This document shows, in pieces, positions 4,923 through 31,839 of a stretch of 32,132 nucleotides of DNA. The stretch lies in contig JACPHN010000020.1 in assembly GCA_016188575.1 (NCBI GenBank), forward strand, positions 1-32,132, written 5' to 3'. A model generated the notes under the pieces. That model saw only the letters and a program-made list of their open reading frames with translations, was not told the DNA's origin and searched no databases. Every line of letters begins with the position of its first letter. The stretch's first letter is position 1. This stretch comes from Candidatus Schekmanbacteria bacterium. GTDB lineage: Bacteria > CSSED10-310 > JACPHN01. The position numbers and the translations under genes are program-made.

Positions 4923-7900
4923 ATGCCGACGCTTGAACGCTTCTTCGTCCCGATCATCAGAATGCTTACTGCCGGGGGCCACGCTCTGGCCTATCCGCTC
5001 ATGACTCCCGGGGCGCTGTGGCTGACGGCAAGCGCTCATGACGTGGCGGTGAAGCTTGGCAAGTACGTGGAGACGTGCCTGGAGAGTGGCGATCTGAAGC
5101 CCTTGTTGGCGCTGCTGCCGGCGTTCGAGCGCGTTGAATGCGAGCGAATGGAGCTTGATCTGAGCGTGCACAAGGCGACCGGCGACGCCTACGCGCCGGA
5201 CTTTCCTCTCGAAGCTCCGGTCATCCGCGCGAGCGTCGCTGGCGGCACCATGCTCGTGCATGCTCCGACGATCCCGGCGGAAGTTGTGGTTGGCTCGCCG
5301 GAGGAAACCGTCGCCGCGACCGAGGAGGCGGTGCGCGCGGCGCTGGCGCGCCTGAAGCGGCTGCGAAGCGCTGCGGGGTTCCTTCCCGTGCTCTGGTGGA
5401 CGACCGCCGCGGTGACGCAGGAGGAGATCGTCGTTGCGGTGCCGACCGTAACGGAGCTGGCAGGCAAGTCGTCGGCAGGGCGCGAGAGCCTGCTGGCCCG
5501 CGTGGGTGCTCGCCAGACGCCAGGCGAGGGAGAAAAAACCTGGCAGCGGGACGAGGACGTCCTGCGGCTGGCCCGAGCTGTGCGCGGACCGGACCGCCGC
5601 AGCGTCCTGGTCGTGGGCCCCTCGGGCACAGGGAAATCCGCGGTCATCGGGGAGCTGGGACGGCGAAAAACGGAGCTCGAGCTCGGCAAGCTCGTAATCT
5701 GGAGCGCCGGTGCTGCTGGCATCATACGCGGGTTGACCGCACCGGAGGGCTGGCTGGAGAAGCTCGCGCAGCTCTGCGCCGAGCTCCAATCGACCGAGGC
5801 CGTCTTGCACGTTCGCAATTTCGCGCAGCTCTTCGAGATCGGGCGCTATATTGGGAATGACGTTAGCGTGGGCGAGGCGTTGCGCGACCCCATTGCCCGG
5901 CGCGAGATCCAGGTTGTGAGCGAATGCACGGCCGAGGAGCTGACGCGCCTGGAGCTTCGGTATCCGGCGGCGATCGCCAACATGCACGTGCTGCGCCTTT
6001 CCGAGCTCGACGAGGGGGCGCTGCGTGACGCCGTCCGGCGCCGGGCGGCGGCGCTTGCGGAATCCCGCGGGCTGATGATCTCGGACGCTGCGCTCGAGGA
6101 GGTACTTTCGCTTCATTGGCGTTATGCCTCCCATTCCGGGATGCCGGGGAAAGCGCTACGGTTCTTGAGCAGTCTGCTCGCGGCGTTCTCCCGCGCCGGC
6201 ACCAACGTCGTCCAGCGCGCCGACGTCATTGGCGCTTTCTGCGAGCAAACGGGGATCCCTGCCGCGCTCATCGATCCACAGGTTCCGCTCAATCCGGGAG
6301 CCGTTTACACGTTTTTCAGCGAGCGCCTCCTTGGGCAGCCGGCCGCGGTCAGCATCGTGTGCGAGGTGCTGGCGGCGGTCAAGGCGCGGCTGGTGCAAAT
6401 GGGGAAACCCATCGCTTCGCTCTTCTTTGTCGGTCCCACCGGCGTGGGCAAGACCGAGCTGGCAAAGGCGCTCGCGGCCTTTGTTTTTTCGAGCCCGGAC
6501 CGGATGACGCGTTTCGACATGAGCGAATACGCGACTCCGGGTGCCGTGCTGCGCCTCACCGGCGACGATGCCGGGAGCGAGGGGCGGCTGACTGGTGCCG
6601 TGCGCGAGCAGCCGTTCTGCGTGCTGCTGTTCGATGAGCTGGAGAAGGCCGATTCGTCGTTTTTCGATCTGCTTCTGCAGGTGCTCGGCGAAGGGCGGCT
6701 GACGGATGCGCGCGGCAAGGTAGCTGATTTTTCTGCCGCCATCATCATCATGACCTCCAATCTCGGCACGGACACCTATGTCTCGGGGCGCGTCGGTTTT
6801 GGCGACGGCGACGCCGGCGGCGGCTCAGTGGATCTGCCCAGTCATTTTGAACGCGCGGCTCAGCAGGCGTTTCGCCCCGAGCTGTTCAACCGCATCGATC
6901 GTATCGTGCCGTTTGCCTCGCTGTCGCCGGCTGACGTGAGAGCGGTGCTGGAGCGCGAGCTAGGGCGCCTGGCCGGCCGCGAGCCGGTGCGGCGAGGCGC
7001 GGTGGCGATCGAGGTCGCGGCGGCGGCCAAGGAGATCATCGCGGCGCGCGGTTTCGACGCCAAGCTCGGCGCTCGTCAGCTTCAGCGCGCGGTGAGCGAC
7101 TCGTTACTCGTGCCAATTGCAGAATGCATGAGCCAGTACGGCGGCGCCGGGCGTCTCGTCGCGCGTGCGGAGACGCGGGCCGAGGCCGGTGCGCTGGCCA
7201 TCACGGTGCGTGAAGGCGATCCCTGGCCCGCGGGCGGCCGCATCCGTATCGACGAGCACGGACGAAAGAGAGTTCCAGCGGATGGTGCGACCAGCCGGCG
7301 GTGGTACTTCGACCAGGTGTACTATGGATCGGTCTATTGCCAGCTCCTCAGCCAACTGGACATCTTGGAGCACCGCAAGGAGGCAAGCGGAGAGGCATTT
7401 TGGGAGAGCTCCGAGCAAGCCGCGCGGTATTCACATCTGCTCGCCGTGCGCTGCGAAGGCGAGGCGCTGTTGCGTGAAATCGAGGAGCTCGAGGATCAGG
7501 CCGTGGCACACTTGCTCGGAGCGGGCGGACATGAGGTTGGCGAGGAGCAGCTTGCGCAGATCGATTCCCGACACCACCTCTACAGGGTGCGGCTTTATGC
7601 CGCCGTGTTCCTGGCGGCCAACTGCTGCACGATCGGCGTTTACGGCTCGGACGCATGTGTCGGCGATGCGGCCCGCACCTACATCAGCGTGGCGCGCCGC
7701 CGCGACTACCGCGTGAAGGCGCGACTGGTGCTGGCATGGGACGAGGCGGCGGCCGACCCGGTCGCGGCGCACCCTGAGCGTCCAGGGCGGAGAAAGGAGC
7801 GACCACCAACCGCCCCGGTGGATCCCGTCGCGTTGGCATCGGTCCCGAGCGGCAAGAAGCGTCCGCCTACCGTGGAGTGGAAGCTCGAGCCTGCCATCGC

Positions 7901-8237
7901 TCCCTTCCCGAAGGAGCGCGTGTTCGGGGTCGAGCTGCAGATCGATGGCCCCTGCGCGGCCGATTTCTTTTCGCCGGAGGGTGGTGTCTACGAGTATGGA
8001 GGGCGAGTGGACCAGCGCGTCTTCGTCTGTGTCAGCAAGGGCGGCCTGAATTCCTTTAAGACCCCGGAGAGCTATATGCGCAAGACCCTCGTGGAACCGT
8101 CACCTCGCCGCACCATCTACGCAACGCAGATCCATGACGAGCAGTTTGATGAGCTAGGCCCCGGTGAGTATGACGCGCTGCTCGCCGAGATCCTCCTCTG
8201 GCGGTTGCTCTACTACCTCTCGGAAGAGTTGCTATAG
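4923..8237 (+). CDS. Clp/Hsp100-like double AAA+ ATPase A with release-factor-like C-terminal region
   Basis: 1104 residues. Residues 1-210 are not the Clp_N repeat domain and resemble the N-termini of the next two genes. D1 starts with Walker A G-P-S-G-T-G-K-S (232-239), but the Walker B position reads V-L-H-V-R-N-F, without the acidic pair. There is no ClpB-type middle domain. D2 is complete: linker F-S-E-R-L-L-G-Q, Walker A G-P-T-G-V-G-K-T (504-511), Walker B L-L-F-D-E (568-572), sensor 1 T-S-N (611-613), arginine finger F-N-R-I-D (655-659) and sensor 2 G-A-R (716-718). The D2 pore loop lacks the G-Y-V-G tyrosine (L-T-G-D-D-A-G-S-E-G). Residues about 790-1104 are an extra region resembling the PCRF domain of release factors: A-R-R-R-D-Y-R-V-K near 924 and G-P-C-A-A-D-F-F-S-P-E-G-G-V near 1009. 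There is no GGQ motif. It is first in an operon of three paralogues; cellular role unknown. Confidence 0.85.
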   Translation: MPTLERFFVPIIRMLTAGGHALAYPLMTPGALWLTASAHDVAVKLGKYVETCLESGDLKPLLALLPAFERVECERMELDLSVHKATGDAYAPDFPLEAPVIRASVAGGTMLVHAPTIPAEVVVGSPEETVAATEEAVRAALARLKRLRSAAGFLPVLWWTTAAVTQEEIVVAVPTVTELAGKSSAGRESLLARVGARQTPGEGEKTWQRDEDVLRLARAVRGPDRRSVLVVGPSGTGKSAVIGELGRRKTELELGKLVIWSAGAAGIIRGLTAPEGWLEKLAQLCAELQSTEAVLHVRNFAQLFEIGRYIGNDVSVGEALRDPIARREIQVVSECTAEELTRLELRYPAAIANMHVLRLSELDEGALRDAVRRRAAALAESRGLMISDAALEEVLSLHWRYASHSGMPGKALRFLSSLLAAFSRAGTNVVQRADVIGAFCEQTGIPAALIDPQVPLNPGAVYTFFSERLLGQPAAVSIVCEVLAAVKARLVQMGKPIASLFFVGPTGVGKTELAKALAAFVFSSPDRMTRFDMSEYATPGAVLRLTGDDAGSEGRLTGAVREQPFCVLLFDELEKADSSFFDLLLQVLGEGRLTDARGKVADFSAAIIIMTSNLGTDTYVSGRVGFGDGDAGGGSVDLPSHFERAAQQAFRPELFNRIDRIVPFASLSPADVRAVLERELGRLAGREPVRRGAVAIEVAAAAKEIIAARGFDAKLGARQLQRAVSDSLLVPIAECMSQYGGAGRLVARAETRAEAGALAITVREGDPWPAGGRIRIDEHGRKRVPADGATSRRWYFDQVYYGSVYCQLLSQLDILEHRKEASGEAFWESSEQAARYSHLLAVRCEGEALLREIEELEDQAVAHLLGAGGHEVGEEQLAQIDSRHHLYRVRLYAAVFLAANCCTIGVYGSDACVGDAARTYISVARRRDYRVKARLVLAWDEAAADPVAAHPERPGRRKERPPTAPVDPVALASVPSGKKRPPTVEWKLEPAIAPFPKERVFGVELQIDGPCAADFFSPEGGVYEYGGRVDQRVFVCVSKGGLNSFKTPESYMRKTLVEPSPRRTIYATQIHDEQFDELGPGEYDALLAEILLWRLLYYLSEELL

Positions 8238-8245
8238 GCCCGGAG

Positions 8246-11200
8246 ATGAGCCCCAGGAGAGTGAACCCAGAAGTACAACGCGTCGAGCTCGCATTTCCCG
8301 CCTTGGTGGACCGTAGGTACGACGACCGTGGCATCCGCCTCTACCGAGTCCGGCCGTTGTTTCGCACCGAGCCGGTGGCGCTGAGCCCGAGGTTCGAACG
8401 CGCGGTGACGCGCCTGCGCGCCCACATCCAGGACGACTTCAGCGGCACCAGACTCGCCCAAGACTGGCTCGACGAGCTCTTTTGGCTGCGCTTTGACCCG
8501 GACCTCGCCTTCGACCTGATGCCGATCGACGTCACCGTCGGGCGTGTTTCCCTTGCCGGCAAGGTCGCGGTGGCTACCTTCTCGGTTGCGGGACAGCAAT
8601 TCGCGTGCCTTCCGGGGTTCGAGGCGCACTTTTTCGAGGTCGCGCCGCGCAACGCAGGGGGCCGCGCTTTGCAGGAGGAGCTCGTCGAGCAAGTTACAAG
8701 CTGGGTGCGCGGCCGGAAAAAGCGCTCCAAAGTCTCGGACTGGGAGGTGTTCCTGACGGATTCCGCCGCATTTGTCACTCCCATCCGCGTCGAGGTCGCC
8801 ATCCTGCCAGGCGAGTTCGGACCGGGACCGGTCTCCGCGGCCGAGCGCTATTTCTTTGGCCCGCAGATGCGGGAATTCAGCGGCGAAACGGAGCTTCGGG
8901 CGGTTTCCACCGAGCTCAACCGCCGGTATCCCGTCGATCTGCGCCGCGCGCTTCTCCGCGATCCCCTGGTGGAGTCGCTGGAGCGGGCGCTGCTCGGAGG
9001 TTCCGGCGAATCCGTCGTGCTCGTGGGTCCGCTGGGCAGCGGCAGGACGACGCTGGTGCACGAGGCGCTGGCACGCCACCTGGACCACCGCAAGCTGAGC
9101 CGCGGCGGCCCCGAGTATCGGGTCTTCCACGTCGATCCCAACCGCGTGGTCGCTGGAATGTCGGTCGTCGGGGACTGGGAGCGGCGGTGGGAGGCGATTC
9201 TCGACGAGCTGGGTCGCCGGCGCGGTGGCGGGACCCAGCCGAGCCCACTCCGGATGTTCGTCGATAACCCTCTGGCGCTGCTCCGCGTCGGGCGCACCGC
9301 TCAAGGCGCGCTGTGCCTCGCCGATGTCATGAAGGACTACGTCGACTCCGGGCGGGTGCGCGTCGTGCTCGAAGCCACTCCGCAGGAGTGGCGGCAGGTC
9401 CAGGAACTGGACCGCGGCTTCGCCGATCTGTTTCGGGTGATCCGGGTGCCCCCCGCGACGATCGAGGAGACCGTGCGCATGGTGACCGCGCACCGCCGGC
9501 GCATTGAAACCAGCGAGGGAACGAACCGACCGCACCTGACCAACCTCGGCCTGGATCGCATCTTCTATCTCTACCGCACCTACCTGAGCCAACGGGCGTT
9601 GCCGGGCGCCGTAGTCGACCTCGTCGACGCGGTGACGGCTCGCCCTTCGGAGGCCGGCTCGGAATATAGTTTTTCTGAGGTCGAGGTGGTGAAGACGTTC
9701 AGCAGATCCTTCAATTTCAGCGCGCGAATCGCCGATCCGGATGCGCGCCTCGAGGCCGCCGAGGCCCGCCGCTGGTTTTCGGCGCGCCTCATCGGCCAAG
9801 ACGAAGCTGTGGAGGCTCTGGTCGCGGCGGTTCTCCTGCTCAAGAGCGGTCTTCGCGACCCCGCTCGGCCAGTTGCCACCTACCTGTTCGTCGGCCCCAC
9901 GGGGGTGGGGAAGACGGAGGCCGCCAAGGTTCTGGCCCGCTTTCTGTGCGCGGAAAGGGACTCAAACTTCATTCGCTTCGACCTGAATACGTTTAACGGC
10001 CCGGACGCCGCGGCCCGCCTGATCGGTTCGGACTCCGGCTCCGACGGCCAGCTCACGAGCCGGGTCCAGTTGTTTCCGTTCTGTGTCTTGCTGCTCGACG
10101 AGATCGAGAAGGCGGATCCGTCGGTCCATGATCTGCTGCTGCAGGTGCTCGGGGAAGGACGGCTGACGGATGCTCGCGGGCGCCTGGTCGACTTCACGAA
10201 TGCGATCATCATCATGACGTCGAACGTGGGTGCGCGCGAAGCGTCCCAGGCATTGGGGTTCGCGCAATCTGGCGAACGGCTGGCGACGGCGTACGCCCGC
10301 ATGCTGCAGCGGACGTTTCGCCCGGAGCTCGTCAACCGCATCGATCGCATCGTGACGTTTCGCCATCTCGATGCGGCGGATATCCGCCTCATTGCGCGCC
10401 GCCAAATCGATGAGCTGGTCGCGCGCCCCGGGTTTGCGCGCCGGCACACGATCTTGAACCTGTCCGACGCGTATATGGAACGGGTGGTCGCGCTAGGGTT
10501 CGATCCCAATCTCGGTGCACGGGCGCTTCGCCGGCGCTTGGAAGCCGATATCGCCCGCGCGGCAGCCAGCGTCCTGGCCGCCGATACGTTGCTGTCGCCG
10601 GCGCTGCTCGAGCTCTCGCTGGATGGTGAGACGTCGAGGTCTGCGGTGACGCCGCTGCGTTTCGCTCGACCCTGGGTCAACCTGGATCATCTCGGCACAC
10701 CAGAACCGGTGGAGGCGGCGGTGGTAGCGGCGCTGGAGGAGCGGCTGCTGCGCGCCGAAGAGCGGGTGCAGGCGGCGATCGATACCGAGCAGCGGGCGCC
10801 CCACGTTCACCTCGGCGAGCTCTACATGCTGCGGGATGCGATCTCCGCCAAGACCGCCAAGGCGCGCGCCAAACTTGATTTTCTCGCCAAGCGCCGCGCA
10901 GGCCCGCCGCCGCGGCCCCGCGGCAATGTGCGGAGGCGTCCCGGCCGGTGGCGCGTTCCCGACATCACGCCTGCGTTTTCCGGCCATTCCGGGGAGCTCA
11001 TCGAGCTTCTGCTCAGCCGTTTCGAGGCGGCCCCGGAGGCTCCGTTCAGCGCCGACGACGAAATTACGGCGCTGGCCATGGCGGCCGTCTTCTTGGAGGA
11101 GCAAGCGGAAATCCTGTGTGGCGGCGCCATCGCCGAGGCACTGGCGCTGGCATCTCTGGTCACCGGGCGCGGCACCGAGGAACGCGACTACGTTACTACC

Positions 11201-11590
11201 TTTCAACTGCGCATGCTGGGCCACGCCGGGCTCGGCGACGGAACTGCGGCGGCGGATCTGTCCATCCGCGATTCTGGACGCGTTCACGCCACGGAGGCAT
11301 CGCACCTGCTCCGGGGCGAGGTTGGCATCCACCTCGTCGTGCGCGGCACTGAGCGCATCGTGCCCGTGATTGCGCAACCGGCGGGAGACCGCACCGCAAA
11401 GCCGCCGGTTCATGGCGAGCTGCCTCCCGTCGTCCGCGTGTACTGCCTGACAGCGGCCGATGCCGAGACCGGGGTCCTCTTCGACCTGCGCTCCGGGCTC
11501 GCTCAGCGCCTTCCGCTCGAACCCGAGAACGCCCGCGTGCTCTACTACGCCAGTGTGGCGGCCGCGGCCCGCGGAGGCGCCCCCAAATGA
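8246..11590 (+). CDS. Clp/Hsp100-like double AAA+ ATPase B with release-factor-like C-terminal region
   Basis: 1114 residues, eight bases after gene A. The start is uncertain: GGAG abuts the ATG at 8246, and a GTG 15 bases on has AGGAG one base upstream. Residues 1-235 match the N-terminal plan of A and C (Y-R-V-R-P-L-F near 33, then M-P-I-D-V-T-V near 92). The D1 Walker A is altered, G-P-L-G-S-G-R-T (261-268) with Arg for the catalytic Lys, and Walker B reads F-V-D-N, so D1 probably does not hydrolyse ATP. D2 is intact: G-P-T-G-V-G-K-T (550-557), L-L-D-E (616-619), T-S-N (658-660), V-N-R-I-D (696-700) and G-A-R (757-759). Its pore loop reads I-G-S-D-S-G-S-D-G, again without tyrosine. After D2 come a charged helical stretch (about 820-885), a Pro/Arg linker (885-903) and a region with E-R-D-Y-V near 979 and R-G-E-V-G-I-H-L-V-V-R near 1023, recalling PCRF domains. 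Confidence 0.85.
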   Translation: MSPRRVNPEVQRVELAFPALVDRRYDDRGIRLYRVRPLFRTEPVALSPRFERAVTRLRAHIQDDFSGTRLAQDWLDELFWLRFDPDLAFDLMPIDVTVGRVSLAGKVAVATFSVAGQQFACLPGFEAHFFEVAPRNAGGRALQEELVEQVTSWVRGRKKRSKVSDWEVFLTDSAAFVTPIRVEVAILPGEFGPGPVSAAERYFFGPQMREFSGETELRAVSTELNRRYPVDLRRALLRDPLVESLERALLGGSGESVVLVGPLGSGRTTLVHEALARHLDHRKLSRGGPEYRVFHVDPNRVVAGMSVVGDWERRWEAILDELGRRRGGGTQPSPLRMFVDNPLALLRVGRTAQGALCLADVMKDYVDSGRVRVVLEATPQEWRQVQELDRGFADLFRVIRVPPATIEETVRMVTAHRRRIETSEGTNRPHLTNLGLDRIFYLYRTYLSQRALPGAVVDLVDAVTARPSEAGSEYSFSEVEVVKTFSRSFNFSARIADPDARLEAAEARRWFSARLIGQDEAVEALVAAVLLLKSGLRDPARPVATYLFVGPTGVGKTEAAKVLARFLCAERDSNFIRFDLNTFNGPDAAARLIGSDSGSDGQLTSRVQLFPFCVLLLDEIEKADPSVHDLLLQVLGEGRLTDARGRLVDFTNAIIIMTSNVGAREASQALGFAQSGERLATAYARMLQRTFRPELVNRIDRIVTFRHLDAADIRLIARRQIDELVARPGFARRHTILNLSDAYMERVVALGFDPNLGARALRRRLEADIARAAASVLAADTLLSPALLELSLDGETSRSAVTPLRFARPWVNLDHLGTPEPVEAAVVAALEERLLRAEERVQAAIDTEQRAPHVHLGELYMLRDAISAKTAKARAKLDFLAKRRAGPPPRPRGNVRRRPGRWRVPDITPAFSGHSGELIELLLSRFEAAPEAPFSADDEITALAMAAVFLEEQAEILCGGAIAEALALASLVTGRGTEERDYVTTFQLRMLGHAGLGDGTAAADLSIRDSGRVHATEASHLLRGEVGIHLVVRGTERIVPVIAQPAGDRTAKPPVHGELPPVVRVYCLTAADAETGVLFDLRSGLAQRLPLEPENARVLYYASVAAAARGGAPK

Positions 11591-13857
11591 CCGCATCCGT
11601 GCACTACCCGCTACTCTGCTGGCCCCTCGCCAACGGCCAATTTCTCGGCAGATTGCTGTTTACCCCATATTCCGCCATGGAAAGCGGGGCGAAGAAGCTC
11701 AGATCGGAGCTCGGGGCGCGCGTCAAACGCGAGCTGATTCAGGCCGGCGAGCTGTTCCCGCCACCGATCGATGCGCCCCAGCTCAAGGTCGTGCGCGTGA
11801 CGATTTCGCCCAGCCATCGCTCCGAGGACAGCAGCGTCCTGGCGCCTCGGGCCGTCACGATTTCGATCCCGGCGGTCTGGGGTCAGAGCGACGACGGGTA
11901 CTTCCTTTGCGTGATCCCCGACTTCGACTATCACCTCTATGTCTACGAGGCCAAGAAGATAGAGGCGACGGTGCTTGCCGCAGCCGTCCAGGCGCTTGCA
12001 GAGACGCCACCGGAGGACCTGTACCGCCTGGCGCTGCGGCCTCTCCCGACCCTGGATGTGATCACGGTGCGGTTTCCCGACCGCGATGAAACGGCGGATG
12101 CGCGCGCTGAGCGCCTGCTCGACGAGGGAAAGCTGGCGGCCGTAGCCGACCCCTACCCTCGGCCACGAGCGGTGACGCATCGCAAGGGGGCGCTGCCCGA
12201 GGCCGCTTGGGAGCGATCTGCGCTCGTGGAGCAGGTGGTTCTCGAGCTGACTCGGGAGTACACGAGCCTGCTGCTCGTCGGCGAGCCGGGAACCGGCAAG
12301 AGCGTGATACTCGCGGACGCGGCGGGGAAGGTGCTACGAGCGAGGAGAGACGACGAGAACCCGGCGCGCCGACTCTGGCACACCTCGGCGCGCCGCCTGA
12401 TCGCCGGCGCGAAATACCTCGGCGATTGGCAGGAGCGGTGTGAGGAGCTTTTCGGCTGCCTCGCCCGCCTCGACGGGATCCTGTGGATCAGCGACTTTGT
12501 GGAGCTCATCCGCGCCGGAGGACACAGCCCCGAGGATTCGGTCGCGGCGTTCATGACCCCGTTCCTGGCTGATGGACGGCTCCAAGTCGTCGCCGAGGTT
12601 CGCCCGCGTGAGCTCGACGCCGCGCAGGCCATGCTCCCTGCCTTCACGAGCCGCTTTCGCCGGCTCCTCGTGCCGGACATGGACCGCGCGCAGGTCATGC
12701 GCGTGCTCGACCAGCTCGGCCTCTATACTGCCGAGAGCCTGGGGGTGACCGTCGGCCCGGTCGCTCGCCAGACCGCATATCGGCTGATGGACGATTTTGC
12801 TCGCTACCAGGCATTCCCCGGCAAGGTTGTCGCACTTCTCGGCAAGTGCATCGAGCGGGCGAAGGACACCGGCAGCACCGCGGTCTCACCGGCCGACGTC
12901 GTTGCCGAGCTGTCGCAATCGCTGGGAATGGCGGAAAACCTGGTGCGGGACGACGTGCCCCTGACGGAGGCTGCGATTCGCTCGCATTTTGCCGAGCGCA
13001 TCATCGGCCAGACTCAACCGATCGACGCCTTTTGTCAGGCGCTACTGCAATTCAAGTCCGGTTTGTGCGACCCGCGACGACCGATCGCGACGCTGCTCTT
13101 CACGGGTCCAACGGGCGTGGGGAAGACCGCGGCGGTCCGCGCTCTGGGCGAGCTCATGCACGGCCGCGGGTCGCGTTTCGACCCCCTGGTGCGCCTGGAC
13201 ATGAGCGAATACCAGCATGCGGGCCAGGTCGAGCGGCTGATCGGGACGCGCACCAGCGAGCCGAGCAAGCTAATCCGCGACGTCCGCGAGCGACCCTACG
13301 GCGTCTTGCTTCTTGACGAGATCGAAAAGGCCCACGCGTCGATCTTCGATGCGCTGCTGGGATTGCTCGACGAGGGTGTGCTCCACGACGCCTATGGGCG
13401 CGTCACGGATTTCCGCAGCATGATCATCGTCATGACCTCCAATCTAGGAGCGGAGAAGGGGCGTGCCATCGGCTTTGGGGATGCCGGCGGGAGTAATCGG
13501 TACCTGTCGAGCGTCCGCGAGTTTTTCCGGCCGGAACTGGTCAACCGGCTGGACCATATCGTGGTTTTTCAACCGTTGACCGAAGAGCACGTCCGCGCCA
13601 TTGCGACACGCGAGCTCGGGCTGCTCGGGCGGCGCGAGGGGCTATCGCGGCACCATCTGAAGCTCACGTTTACCGACGGCGTGCGCGATCTGGTGGTGCG
13701 TCGGGGATTCGACCCGGAGCTCGGCGCACGGCCGCTGCAGCGCGCCATCGAGCGTCTCGTCGTCGCGCCGCTCACGCGTTTTCTGCTGCAGCGACCCGGG
13801 CTCGAGGCGCGCACGCTGGCGCTGGAGTGCGATGGCGAGCGGGTTTACGTAAGGTAG
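11587..13857 (+). CDS. Clp/Hsp100-like double AAA+ ATPase C
   Basis: 756 residues. The ATG at 11587 overlaps the stop of gene B by four bases, implying coupled translation. Residues 1-210 share the N-terminal plan of A and B. D1 is the most Clp-like of the three: Walker A G-E-P-G-T-G-K-S (232-239) and pore-loop region L-I-A-G-A-K-Y-L-G-D-W-Q-E-R with its aromatic retained. Walker B reads L-W-I-S-D-F, with Phe in place of Glu. D2 is intact: G-P-T-G-V-G-K-T (507-514), L-L-L-D-E-I-E-K-A-H (Asp577, Glu578), T-S-N (617-619), V-N-R-L-D (652-656) and G-A-R (713-715). The D2 pore loop is I-G-T-R-T-S-E-P-S, without G-Y-V-G. A-I-G-F-G-D near 627 lies where ClpA and ClpC carry their ClpP-docking tripeptide. 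There is no C-terminal extension. It probably works as part of a hetero-complex with A and B (inference from operon and shared design). Confidence 0.87.
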   Translation: MTASVHYPLLCWPLANGQFLGRLLFTPYSAMESGAKKLRSELGARVKRELIQAGELFPPPIDAPQLKVVRVTISPSHRSEDSSVLAPRAVTISIPAVWGQSDDGYFLCVIPDFDYHLYVYEAKKIEATVLAAAVQALAETPPEDLYRLALRPLPTLDVITVRFPDRDETADARAERLLDEGKLAAVADPYPRPRAVTHRKGALPEAAWERSALVEQVVLELTREYTSLLLVGEPGTGKSVILADAAGKVLRARRDDENPARRLWHTSARRLIAGAKYLGDWQERCEELFGCLARLDGILWISDFVELIRAGGHSPEDSVAAFMTPFLADGRLQVVAEVRPRELDAAQAMLPAFTSRFRRLLVPDMDRAQVMRVLDQLGLYTAESLGVTVGPVARQTAYRLMDDFARYQAFPGKVVALLGKCIERAKDTGSTAVSPADVVAELSQSLGMAENLVRDDVPLTEAAIRSHFAERIIGQTQPIDAFCQALLQFKSGLCDPRRPIATLLFTGPTGVGKTAAVRALGELMHGRGSRFDPLVRLDMSEYQHAGQVERLIGTRTSEPSKLIRDVRERPYGVLLLDEIEKAHASIFDALLGLLDEGVLHDAYGRVTDFRSMIIVMTSNLGAEKGRAIGFGDAGGSNRYLSSVREFFRPELVNRLDHIVVFQPLTEEHVRAIATRELGLLGRREGLSRHHLKLTFTDGVRDLVVRRGFDPELGARPLQRAIERLVVAPLTRFLLQRPGLEARTLALECDGERVYVR

Positions 13858-16243: not shown

Positions 16244-19200
16244 CTATGCCACTGCTGCCGCAAAGGCCGCGAACAGGTCGCCCGGCAACGCGTGCGCGAG
16301 GCGCCATGTAACCGCCATAGGTAGCTCGGATTCATGCCGCACGTAGCTGGCGGGGCCGAGGAAGTAAAAGGCGCGTTGGTCGCTCCGCAGGCGAGCGAAG
16401 AGCATGACGGACGAGCCGAGCTCCTCATGGCGTTGGTATCGGTGGCCCGTCTCGCTTGCGGCGCGCGTGACGGATTGGCTCTCCCAGTGGATGAGCTCCG
16501 GGCTGATCGCGAAGTCCCGATAGCGGGTCGTGGGAGAGAACTCCCCCCGCGTCTTGTCGAGCGTGAACGCCAGCAGATCAGCCTCGGCGTCCTTTGCCCA
16601 GTAAACACCGGTCTGCCACGGTGCTGCCTTGGCCCCGCCTCCGACTCCGAAGGCCGCGAGGATTTCGATGCGCGTGTAGCGAGCGTGGACCTGCAGGGGG
16701 ACGTCAGGATGCGTCGCGAGCGGCCACGAAAGGTGCTGGATCCGCTCGGCCAGCGCGTCGAGCAGGGCGATCAGCTCAGCGCACACCTGGGGATGGCTCC
16801 ACAGCAGAGAGCACCCCTCGGCCAAAGTGGCGGACTTCGTCACCGCCTTGTCGACAAGGGATGCGACCACCATGCGCAGGAGCCTTCGCTCTCGCTCGCT
16901 GAGCCGTCGCAGATCGGGGGGACGAGAGGTCTGGAGGAGGCGGCGGACCGTCTGGATCCGCGCGGCGTCGTCGATATGCAGCAATCTTCCGCACGCCCGT
17001 CGCAGCGCTTTTTCTCGAGGCCCGGCCTGCAGGACGGCGAGGCCGGCGTCCTCGCACAGGTCGGACCAGCACTTGCATCCCGCGTAAAGCTCCTCGAGCT
17101 CGAGCCCGGTGGCATCGAGATAGCCCGCGAGCGATGGGGCGTGTACGTTCCGGGCGAGCGCCCTGAGCTCATCCACCTTGGCTGACCACCGCGAAGGCAC
17201 GGATTCGCGGATGCTCGCCAGCACGATCTCCTGCGCGACGCGGTCGAGGTCCATGTGGCAGCCCGCGGGGAGGAACGGGAAGCCTTCGCTCACCTGCTCC
17301 TGGACGTCGCGCCTGCTGCCGCCGAGCAACGCGCGGAAGCGTCTGTCCAGCCGAAACTCGCGGCGGTGGTGCCCTACGAAATCCAGGACCGTGCAGGCCG
17401 ACTTGCCTCTGCTGCGGCGCAGGCCCCGGCCGAGTTGTTGCAGGAACAAAGTCGGGCTGTCCGTCGGGCGCAGCATCAGCAAGGTGTCCACCGCGGGAAC
17501 GTCGACTCCCTCGTTGAAGAGATCCACCGAGAACACGACGTTGACGCGGCGCGCCGCGAGGTCGGTGAGGGCAGCGGTGCGCTCGTCGGGCGGTGTGTCG
17601 GACCAGATGGCAGTCGCGGGGATACCCTGCTGCTGAAACACTCGGGCCATGAACCGCGCGTGGTCCACGCTGACACAGAAGCCGAGCGCCCGCATCGTCG
17701 CGATGGAATCTACGCGACGGTCCAGCTCCTTCAGGACGAGCCGTGCCCACGCGTCGTTGCCCGTGAGCAGGCTCGACAGACCATCGACATCATAGCCACG
17801 CCCTCGGCGCCACGGGACGTCGCGAAAATCGAGCCCGTCGTGGATGCCGTAGTAGATGAAGGGCACCAGACGGCGCTGGTCGATGGCATCCCAGAGCCGC
17901 AGCTCGGCGGCAATGCGGCCGTCGAACCACTCCAGGATCGGCAGCCCGTCGCTCCGCTCGGGCGTGGCCGTGAGCCCGAGCAACTCCGCCGGGCGCAGAT
18001 GCTCGAGCAGTGCCTTGTACGACGCGGCGGCGGCATGATGGAACTCGTCCACTACGATGACGTCGAAGTGCTCGGGATCGATGTGAGCAAGGCCCGTCGC
18101 GCTCAGACTCTGGATGGAAGCGAAAACGTGCTCGAAGCGGTTCGGGTGCTCGCCATCAACCCACAGCTCGCCGAAGGTGTGGTCCCGCAGCGCATATCGG
18201 AGTGTCGCCCGGCTCTGCCGCAAGATCTCCTTGCGATGCGCCACGAAAAGGAGCCTGGCCCGCGGCAGCTCGTCCCGAAGTCGCGCGTAGTCGAGCGCGG
18301 CCATCACCGTCTTTCCGGTGCCCGTCGCAGACACCAGCAGGTTGCGGTGGTGGCCAAGGCGACGAGCGAGCGCCACCTGCTCGAGAAGCCGCTCCTGAAA
18401 CGGTTCGGCACGAAGCTCGGTGGGGCCAAGCACGATGGTGGCGTCCGGTTTGCGCGACGCCTGGCAGCACACCTCGAACTTGTGCCTGTCGTACGGCTCG
18501 AAGTCGTCGCTGTTCCAGTAGCTTTCGAAGACGGCCTGCACCTTGTCGACGACGCTGGCATTGCGGGCCGCAGACACCCGGACGTTCCACTCCAGCCCGC
18601 TGATCTGCGCCGCGCGCGTGAGATTCGAGGAGCCGATGTAGGCGGTGGAGAACCCGGAGTGGCGGTGGAAAAGCCACGCCTTTGCGTGCAGCCGTGTTCC
18701 CGTCAGATCGTAAGAGACCCGGACGTCGCCGCCAAGCTCTCGGAGCGCCTCGAGTGCGCGCGCCTCGGTGGAGGCGGTGTATGTTGTCGTGAGCACTCTG
18801 AGAGCGCGACCGGCGGCGCAGTGATCCTGAAGCGCCGCCAGCATCGGCGCGATCCCGCTCCGGCGAATGAACGCCATCACCAGATCGATCCGGTCGGCGG
18901 AGCAAATCTCGGCGACGATCTGGTGTCCGACGCGCGGTTCGCCGGGCGCATTGGTGAGCAGCGTGGTATCCAGGAGCGGGATCAGCGGCTCACGAATCGT
19001 CTCAGGCCGACCGTCGGGCAAGCGGCGCTCAACGGCCCGAAGGACCTCGCCTGGCATGACCGGTCGCTCGGGGAACAGGTCCGGTACGGCGACCGCCTGA
19101 CCTATGAGGTCGATCAATTTTCGGGCAAGCGACGTGCCCACAGCGGCTCGCTCTCGCTCGTCGATGGCTGCGATTGCCCTCTCGATGATGCGGGCGAGGT

Positions 19201-19339
19201 GCAGTGCGATCCGATCGGCTGCCTCGGCGGGGCGAAGGCCGGTCCTGCGCGTCTCGAGGTGGTCGCTCAGCTCGTGGAGCTCCAACTCCAGCGCCTCGGT
19301 GACCAGCACCTCGAAAAGTCCGCGCTCGCATCTTGCCAT
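16244..19339 (-). CDS. Phospholipase D-like / DEAD-box helicase with DUF3427 region
   Basis: 1031 residues from the ATG at 19339; the longer open frame upstream reads through the PAP2 fossil and is not coding-like. Order: a helical N-terminus (1-120); one PLD nuclease-type domain with H-A-K (218-220) and I-G-S-S-N-L-T; helicase motif I S-A-T-G-T-G-K-T (337-344), motif II D-E-F-H (431-434), motif III L-T-A-T-P; the second RecA lobe with F-N-E-G-V-D-V-P and motif VI Q-Q-L-G-R-G-L-R-R (634-642); then a C-terminal region to 1031 of the DUF3427 type, containing W-E-S-Q and Y-F-L-G-P-A. This is the widespread PLD-DEAD-DUF3427 protein, often found in defence or mobile regions and thought to act on nucleic acids. 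No methylase or other partner lies beside it. The ribosome site is weak. Confidence 0.88.
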   Translation of the reverse strand: MARCERGLFEVLVTEALELELHELSDHLETRRTGLRPAEAADRIALHLARIIERAIAAIDERERAAVGTSLARKLIDLIGQAVAVPDLFPERPVMPGEVLRAVERRLPDGRPETIREPLIPLLDTTLLTNAPGEPRVGHQIVAEICSADRIDLVMAFIRRSGIAPMLAALQDHCAAGRALRVLTTTYTASTEARALEALRELGGDVRVSYDLTGTRLHAKAWLFHRHSGFSTAYIGSSNLTRAAQISGLEWNVRVSAARNASVVDKVQAVFESYWNSDDFEPYDRHKFEVCCQASRKPDATIVLGPTELRAEPFQERLLEQVALARRLGHHRNLLVSATGTGKTVMAALDYARLRDELPRARLLFVAHRKEILRQSRATLRYALRDHTFGELWVDGEHPNRFEHVFASIQSLSATGLAHIDPEHFDVIVVDEFHHAAAASYKALLEHLRPAELLGLTATPERSDGLPILEWFDGRIAAELRLWDAIDQRRLVPFIYYGIHDGLDFRDVPWRRGRGYDVDGLSSLLTGNDAWARLVLKELDRRVDSIATMRALGFCVSVDHARFMARVFQQQGIPATAIWSDTPPDERTAALTDLAARRVNVVFSVDLFNEGVDVPAVDTLLMLRPTDSPTLFLQQLGRGLRRSRGKSACTVLDFVGHHRREFRLDRRFRALLGGSRRDVQEQVSEGFPFLPAGCHMDLDRVAQEIVLASIRESVPSRWSAKVDELRALARNVHAPSLAGYLDATGLELEELYAGCKCWSDLCEDAGLAVLQAGPREKALRRACGRLLHIDDAARIQTVRRLLQTSRPPDLRRLSERERRLLRMVVASLVDKAVTKSATLAEGCSLLWSHPQVCAELIALLDALAERIQHLSWPLATHPDVPLQVHARYTRIEILAAFGVGGGAKAAPWQTGVYWAKDAEADLLAFTLDKTRGEFSPTTRYRDFAISPELIHWESQSVTRAASETGHRYQRHEELGSSVMLFARLRSDQRAFYFLGPASYVRHESELPMAVTWRLAHALPGDLFAAFAAAVA

Positions 19340-19439
19340 TGGCCGAAGTGTAGCCGTAGGGGTGGCGTGGGCGCAATGAAATGAGGTGATGGCCTTGTCG
19401 CCGCACGGGGTGGCACGGGGCGCGATCGTGCGTCGACTG

Positions 19440-19613
19440 TGAGGCCTCTTCGGGAACGCCCGCTGGCGAGCCCCGGACGGATCGGGCCCGGAGACGCAAC
19501 ACACCCAGCGCGACTGCGGTTCCGATGACTGCCCCGGCGAGCACATCGCTGGGAAAATGGACGCCCAGGCAGACCCTGGAACGCGTCAGCGTGGTACTTT
19601 CTCCATCGAACAT
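19440..19613 (-). pseudogene. PAP2 phosphatase C-terminal fossil
   Basis: The minus frame reads T-L-T-R-S-R-V-C-L-G-V-H-F-P-S-D-V-L-A-G-A-V-I-G, followed by a hydrophobic helix and a basic tail. S-R-x5-H-x3-D is the third catalytic motif of PAP2 acid phosphatases. Motifs one and two and all preceding membrane helices are missing, so only the last part survives. It lies between the helicase and the cas fragments. Confidence 0.75.
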
Positions 19614-30683: not shown

Positions 30684-30900
30684 CGGCCATGTCTCCGGCA
30701 AGGGCGTTGCACCACTCCATCGCTTCGGCTTCGCGTGCCTTGTCGGCGGCCATCGCCCGGTAGTCTTCTTCGAGTGACGTATCCACCACATGCGGGCGCA
30801 GCAAGTCCTCAATGAACTGGCTCATGCGCCGCCGCCCTACCGTCCGGTAAAGCCCCTCATACACCGCCTCATCGAGCGTGATCGTCATTTTCCGGTGCAT
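30670..30900 (-). CDS. RHH-type antitoxin partner of MazF
   Basis: 76 residues from the ATG at 30900, preceded by GAGGAGG. The N-terminal M-T-I-T-L-D-E-A-V-Y-E-G-L-Y-R-T-V-G-R-R-R-M forms the beta strand and helices of a ribbon-helix-helix DNA-binding domain. The C-terminal part (E-E-D-Y-R-A-M-A-A-D-K) is acidic and probably wraps the toxin. It is expected to repress its own operon and neutralise the MazF protein. Confidence 0.85.
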   Translation of the reverse strand: MHRKMTITLDEAVYEGLYRTVGRRRMSQFIEDLLRPHVVDTSLEEDYRAMAADKAREAEAMEWCNALAGDMADAAR

Positions 30901-31023
30901 AACAACCTCCTCAGCTTGGTCTGGTCAGCATGGTCGCTTCCTCCTGCAAGCTTCCGCCTTCAGGCGGGAGAAGCTGATGGGGCGGAAGGACATCCAAACA
31001 CGGAATACGTATTACATCTTAGC

Positions 31024-31144
31024 ACGCACCGTCACCGTCTACCAGCTCGCCCAAGTCCCTCGCGTCCTTGGCATCGACGAAACGCTCGAGGGCGGAGACG
31101 TCCTGCCCGGCTTCGCCTGCCTCGTGGACGAGATCTTCGGCTAG
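31024..31144 (+). pseudogene. Uma2 C-terminal fragment, duplicated from the downstream Uma2 gene
   Basis: The frame reads R-T-V-T-V-Y-Q-L-A-Q-V-P-R-V-L-G and G-D-V-L-P-G-F-A-C-L-V-D-E-I-F-G-stop. It matches the last 40 codons of the Uma2 gene at 31288-31839, with 10 differences in 120 bases, several at third positions. Weaker similarity continues about 45 bases past both stop codons. There is no 5' part, so it is not functional. Confidence 0.9.
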
Positions 31145-31287
31145 GGCCGCAGAACCACCTTGGCACCGAGCAGCCCATCGAGACGGGAGCCGCATGTGGT
31201 TTGCTCGCGCCCCCTCTCAGGCGGCCGGAAAAATGTCCCGTAGTGGTGCTATCCTCGGATCAGCACTCCGCACGAAAGGACCCGACT

Positions 31288-31839
31288 TTGAGCACCGCAG
31301 CGATTCAAGAACGTCTGATCACCGCCGACGAGTTCGAGCGCATCGCCCATCGCCTCGGTCGCTCCGAGCTCATCGACGGGAGGATTGTCCAAATGAGCCC
31401 TACCGGTTGGAAACATGGCCGCATAGAAGGTCGCCTTTACAAGCTCATTGAGCGGCATTGCGAAAGGCTCAGTCTGGGTGAGGTGGGCACCGGCGAGGTC
31501 GGCTGCAAGTTGCCCAACGGCCGCGTCCGCGCGCCAGACGTGCTGTTCATTCGCCAGGAAAGACTCGTTGGCCTTCCCGAAGACGGCTTCCTGCCTTTCG
31601 CCCCGGACCTGGCGGTGGAGGTGGTCTCGCCGGACGACAGCCCGCGCGAAGCCCGCGACAAGGCCAACGAGTGGATCGCCGCCGGTTCCCAGGCCGTCTG
31701 GACCGTCGATCCTGCGTCCCGCACCGTCACCGTCTACCAGCTCGCTCAAGTCCCCCGCGTCCTCGGCCCCGGCGAGACTCTCGAGGGCGGAGACGTCCTG
31801 CCCGGCTTCGCCTGCCCGGTGGACGAGATCTTCGGCTAG
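31288..31839 (+). CDS. Uma2 family (DUF820) restriction-endonuclease-fold protein
   Basis: 183 residues from a TTG at 31288, eight bases after AAAGGA; a much longer upstream open frame is read-through of the toxin-antitoxin antisense and the tail duplication. Family marks are A-D-E-F-E-R-I-A-H, E-L-I-D-G-R-I-V-Q-M-S-P-T-G, A-P-D-V-L-F-I and P-D-L-A-V-E-V-V-S-P-D-D with the downstream K-A-N-E-W and V-W-T-V-D-P, the expected PD-(D/E)xK arrangement. Function in the cell is unknown. It differs strongly from the Uma2 at 20847-21455, so they are not recent copies of each other. Confidence 0.9.
   Translation: MSTAAIQERLITADEFERIAHRLGRSELIDGRIVQMSPTGWKHGRIEGRLYKLIERHCERLSLGEVGTGEVGCKLPNGRVRAPDVLFIRQERLVGLPEDGFLPFAPDLAVEVVSPDDSPREARDKANEWIAAGSQAVWTVDPASRTVTVYQLAQVPRVLGPGETLEGGDVLPGFACPVDEIFG

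Follow-up and report, generated by a model that had tools for sequence, protein, structure and literature searches.

In eukaryotic ribosome quality control, the release-factor-like protein Vms1/ANKZF1 is linked to an AAA+ motor, Cdc48 (PMC6514570), and this pair is the closest functional analogy to the bacterial three-gene system described here (A-B-C). Unlike the release-factor-like tails of that system, Vms1/ANKZF1 has an archaeo-eukaryotic release factor fold of other origin, is catalytically active, and contacts Cdc48 through a motif rather than by fusion. Dom34/Pelota and MRPS35 are members of release factor families that have lost catalysis and kept their roles on the ribosome (PMC6514570), although neither is fused to an AAA+ protein or derived from RF2. 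A literature search found no description of a fusion of Clp/AAA+ and RF2 or of the A-B-C system, and, as far as that search shows, the capture of a release factor by bacterial AAA+ motors was not previously known. An unpublished database annotation may exist, as Pfam would show AAA_2 together with PCRF for one type of fusion discussed below (L151).

The window, a stretch of 32,132 nucleotides from Candidatus Schekmanbacteria bacterium (contig JACPHN010000020.1), contains three tandem genes on the forward strand, encoding ATPase A (4923..8237; 1104 amino acids), ATPase B (8246..11590; 1114 amino acids), and ATPase C (11587..13857; 756 amino acids), the start of the last overlapping the stop of B in the sequence ATGA. 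Like ClpA, ClpB, and ClpC, these HSP100/Clp-type proteins possess two AAA+ modules, with Pfam matches to AAA_2 and ClpB_D2-small and with the P-loop and Walker B of the second module (D2) intact in all three. They depart from ordinary HSP100/Clp proteins in being three co-inherited paralogues, of which A and B bear RF2-derived tails, and in giving no Pfam match to Clp_N in the window. The Walker B glutamate of the first module (D1) is mostly lost, the D-E pair being absent from 36/37 A, 30/31 C, and 21/34 B proteins while present in 18/18 ordinary Clp proteins. In the B protein of the window, the D1 P-loop GPLGSGRT (9026..9049) is accompanied by the sequence FVDNPL without the glutamate, and the D2 P-loop GPTGVGKT (9893..9916) by the intact Walker B LLLDEIEK and a pore loop without GYVG.

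On another reading, A-B-C would be a Clp-type unfoldase of a ClpP protease, its RF2-like arms being placed at or close to the ClpP-docking face and serving as adaptors for substrates. In its favour, the tripeptide [LIVMP]-G-[FL] lies at the ClpP-docking position between the D2 TSN and NR[ILV]D motifs (VGF, LGF, and IGF in A, B, and C of the window, where the D2 modules span approximately 6432-7150, 9893-10600, and 13105-13800), and it recurs in 20/31 B and 22/28 C proteins. It is strictly kept in only 10/34 A proteins, however, the GYVG of the D2 pore loop needed for threading is absent from all 100 proteins scored (36 A, 33 B, and 31 C), and no clpP was found among the nearest neighbours scanned. 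This reading is given a slim chance.

The initial annotation had proposed that B carries, between positions 10700 and 11590 (residues 819-1114), a PCRF-like extension related to that of A, the two forming an extra domain that C lacks. C was indeed without any extension in 31/31 proteins examined, and the arrangement of two tailed subunits and one tail-less one held in every set examined. The tail of A (7275..8234; residues 785-1104) consists of an RF2-like helical domain followed by the counterpart of domain 2/4, as judged from AlphaFold2 (AF2) models and Foldseek. That of B, about 320 residues long, lies at the C-terminus behind the D2 module and is composed of a helical part (10706..11122; residues 821-959), drawn from the AF2 helices as the putative counterpart of RF2 domain 1 and the least certain of the features, and a PCRF-like alpha/beta part (11144..11569; residues 967-1108), which corresponds in VIA superpositions and profiles to release factor domain 2/4 without the GGQ-bearing domain 3. 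The shared domain is better described as derived from RF2, taking in the helical domain besides the PCRF part, while its GGQ domain and decoding motifs have disappeared; the adaptor role first suggested for it is putative.

The short strings on which the relationship had been based are all present where they were reported (AAVFL at A893 and B946, RDY at A927 and B980, LSIRDSG at B1005, and RGEVGIHLVVR at B1023), and they do not carry equal weight. AAVFL and RDY, put forward as shared anchors, are attributable to chance, neither being conserved within its own family: one shared 5-mer is expected in 18% of shuffles of such tails, and RDY follows a helix in the model of A and lies inside a helix in that of B. 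The RGEVGIHLVVR block (11312..11344; residues 1023-1033) fared better, as it represents a family-wide E-x-G-x-H-L motif that aligns with SPEGGVYEY in A and is the equivalent of the E-x-G-V-H-R block of release factors. Alignment of B orthologues revealed the conserved succession G-x-x-A-x-x-L-A-x-x-E-x-G-x-H-L-F, then P-[IV]-x-R-x-Y and D-L-R-[TS]-G, the last of these (DLRSG in the window; 11483..11497; residues 1080-1084) being aligned with the C-terminal K-D-x-R-T strand of RF2. In its E-x-G-x-H block and C-terminal D-x-R-T-G strand, B therefore resembles RF2.

Could this likeness have arisen by chance, the tail of B being an unrelated helical/beta extension? Several results would be in keeping with it: direct pairwise alignment of the A and B tails scored 36 against a shuffled mean of 37, which is no better than chance; scans of both window tails with Pfam and NCBIfam gave no match, neither reaching the gathering score of PCRF (PF03462); and RF2 ranked only third, with an E value of 0.53, when PDB sequences were searched with a B-tail HMM. 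Comparison of family profiles, built from 29 B, 34 A, and 5 fusion tails, told against it. The B profile was matched to that of A at 95.9% (P 5.9e-9, 141 columns), to that of single-gene Clp-RF2 fusions at 95.1% (P 3.2e-8), to RF2 at 84% (P 7.3e-6), and to RF1 at 82% (P 1e-5, 303 columns), while A and the fusions matched RF2 at 96.3% and 99.95% (P 5.5e-38), respectively; these percentages and P values refer to single comparisons and are not database E-values. The hhalign probability of B against release factors rose from 2-9% with 14 B sequences to 82-84% with 29. In block-shuffled controls made with an earlier set of 18 B sequences, the real score was reached in 0/40 shuffles for each pair tested, the scores being 42.2 against 14.4 +/- 3.0 for B with RF1 and 47.5 against 12.3 +/- 2.0 for B with A.

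Predicted structures agreed with the profiles, clearly for A and weakly for B. The AF2 model of the A tail is good (pLDDT 78.6, core above 90), its top 31 PDB matches in Foldseek are all RF1, RF2, or mtRF1, and VIA superposed it with Z scores of 11.5-13.9, 134 residues of domain 2/4 fitting at 3.1 A; the release factor fold of domains 1 and 2/4 is present in this model, in the same order as in RF2. The model of the B tail is poor (mean pLDDT 58.8), a low confidence that also speaks for a chance likeness. RF1 and RF2 nevertheless took the two highest ranks among 350,542 chains in Foldseek, at E values of 0.017 and 0.13, respectively, neither of them individually significant, and 140 residues of domain 2/4 were superposed by VIA on RF1 at 3.8 A with a Z of 9.1. 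Unrelated long helix pairs equalled RF2 in Z on the helical half of B, which therefore offers no independent proof, was kept out of the evidence, and could in this model be any helix bundle. Unrelated predicted folds for the two tails, the outcome that would have spoken against a common origin, were not obtained, and the extra release-factor-like domain claimed for A and B was borne out by profile scores, shuffled controls, and folds together. Homology of the B tail to the A tail and RF2 is accordingly considered very probable, and a fortuitous resemblance very improbable.

A bridge between the A/B tails and RF2 was found in single-gene Clp-RF2 fusions. Besides RF1 and RF2, the genome of the window contains a third PF03462 match above the Pfam cutoff, located within a Clp ATPase of 1153 amino acids with an RF2-like tail and no GGQ (L112:7483-10941, G000:C225). 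In a second type of fusion, represented by L151 (L151:2602-5682) and its relatives L209-L211 (L209:3802-6795 and L211:5621-8701), the tail is a whole RF2, colinear with it over the full length; the L151-type tail matched RF2 of the PDB in phmmer with an E value of 1.2e-27. PF03462 exceeded its gathering score in L151, L209, L210, and L112, Pfam PCRF scoring 60-72 bits in the first three against a cutoff of 24. The L151 type occurs in several genera and is thus no assembly chimera. Where RF2 has the loop RASGAGGQHV, the fusions read RADGYFLRKL, RANGHFLRRL, or RASGELLPRL, so that even the complete tail is no normal release factor. A profile of myxobacterial A tails also matched ORFs of 350-400 amino acids (about 1e-6 to 1e-13) in most Myxococcota genomes sampled, which, from their size and the region matched, are probably genuine RF2 genes.

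The surroundings of the fusion genes are varied. The L151 gene lies between genes for a phosphoribosyltransferase-domain (pyrR-like) and a carbamoyltransferase (pyrB-like) protein, and that of L209 has a phosphoribosyltransferase neighbour too; a gene for a HEAT-repeat protein (L210:7120-9150) immediately precedes one of the Clp-RF2 fusion genes, and near the L112 fusion is a large gene (L112:11849-14659) with repeat-like and response-regulator-like parts. Searches of plasmids and phages with the fusion tail returned ordinary RF2-like genes only, among the matches listed.

Apart from being joined to an AAA+ motor, the tails of A, B, and the fusions are set off from RF2 by what they have lost. 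Domain 3 is absent from the A and B tail alignments (a regular expression search found five GGQ strings within tails, the one in L002 being outside the domain-3 position), the stop-codon motif SPF or PxT was found in 0/37 A and 0/34 B proteins by regular expression, with which the alignments agree, and the decoding element GRRHTS is gone. The A and B tails are RF2 modules of common descent that are dead as catalysts and lack both the GGQ-bearing domain 3 and the loops that read stop codons. The steps leading from RF2 to an adaptor without catalysis can be traced, from full-length fusion with GGQ replaced, through deletion of domain 3, to the trio of two tailed subunits and one tail-less, and this would be of value even if the tails do not dock on ribosomes.

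It is proposed, with a probability of roughly 0.5, that A, B, and C would form a hetero-oligomeric HSP100 ring with dead RF2 arms, which would dock it on a partner, the ribosome being the likeliest one. The three proteins would assemble into the ring, a hetero-oligomer being suggested by their co-inheritance, and ATP hydrolysis in D2 would power it. From its D2 face, the RF2-shaped arms of A and B would project towards the partner, presumably the A-site/factor site of a ribosome that is stalled or engaged in some other way, and would dock there without codon reading or peptidyl-tRNA cleavage, after which the motor may remodel or extract something at that site. C would provide most of the D1 pore grip and A and B the docking arms, a division of labour suggested by the D1 pore-loop aromatic, which is kept in 30/31 C, 19/34 B, and 0/37 A proteins (18/18 in ordinary Clp).

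The RF2 ancestry points most naturally to the ribosome as the dock, an identification held tentatively, at somewhat less than even odds. Many release factor contacts are made by the decoding motifs, and the loss of every one of them means that the tail fold may now bind something else. The RF2 fold may accordingly have been co-opted as a domain for scaffolding or protein-protein contacts in general, and the A and B tails would then bind each other, or else an adaptor or client, instead of ribosomes; this is a serious contender that falls just short of an even chance. Such a role would fit the disappearance of all decoding and catalytic motifs, the strong divergence of the tails, in which the conserved residues are structural only (e.g., E-x-G and D-x-R-x-G), and the lack of any recurring translation gene beside the operon among the neighbours scanned. 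It sits less well with the fusions having recruited RF2 complete with its helical factor domain and with the A tail keeping both RF2 parts. Returning to the docking ring, its most specific version is rather unlikely: dead RF2 arms would seat a three-subunit HSP100 ring on stalled ribosomes, in their factor-binding site, and the ring would pull these ribosomes or their nascent chains apart as a bacterial counterpart of Vms1-Cdc48. If ribosome docking has survived in the tails, a large number of bacteria would possess a motor-driven pathway acting on ribosomes that is unrelated to trans-translation, ArfA/B, RqcH, or MutS2.

Among the GTDB genomes scanned, the operon, with products of ~1100 (A), ~1100 (B), and ~760 (C) amino acids, recurs in seven phyla or more, its hosts being Hahella, Verrucomicrobia, Acidobacteria/Holophagae, Planctomycetes, Riflebacteria, Sericytochromatia, and Myxococcota. 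The three genes reside at separate loci in Saprospiraceae, where all of them were kept in 4/4 genomes tested. The B tail was detected in 17/245 other Planctomycetota genomes (7%), and of 16 loci fetched from this phylum, 13 have A, B, and C as clean ORFs and L188 has three more divergent ones; in every one of these the order is A-B-C, and tails are borne by A and B but not by C. In the Myxococcota sample, 56/193 genomes (29%) had a match at E < 1e-18, located in 54 of the 56 in ORFs of over 1000 amino acids (both figures counted by hand from the listing). Tailed AAA+ proteins are rare overall, verified examples in a domain-wide sample of 386 genomes coming from the window genome and the L151 genome only. 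In a tree of D2 modules, core A, core B, and core C form separate supported groups, divergent myxobacterial rows lacking firm placement; the window falls beside Hahella and Saprospiraceae in all three groups alike, the placement that a module passed on as one piece should show.

No conserved partner gene was found beside the operon among the neighbours scanned. A type IV restriction enzyme gene lies near the operon of the window, and two relatives have methylases; the gene in question (16244-19546, reverse strand) encodes a protein with PLD nuclease, helicase, and DUF3427 parts and is assigned by PADLOC to type IV methyl-directed restriction enzymes (1.3e-253). A putative Uma2-family endonuclease (30790-31836, forward strand; Pfam 1.1e-41) has relatives near L112 and L015. 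The reading of the locus as a defence island was set aside, no PADLOC family being found in more than 2/46 neighbours and those mostly kinases, as was a plasmid or phage origin, no full-length B match being present in plasmids.

Elsewhere in the window genome there is an unusual Clp ATPase (L129:7236-10703, G000:C245), an ORF of 1156 amino acids with a long repeat-like N-terminal half and no RF-like tail. An ORF of 153 amino acids (L130:7758-8216, G000:C150) joins a piece of a B D2 module to the C-terminus of a C protein, with DNA identities of 82% to window positions 10112-10263 and 83% to 13681-13844, and is apparently a relic of a second copy of the operon.
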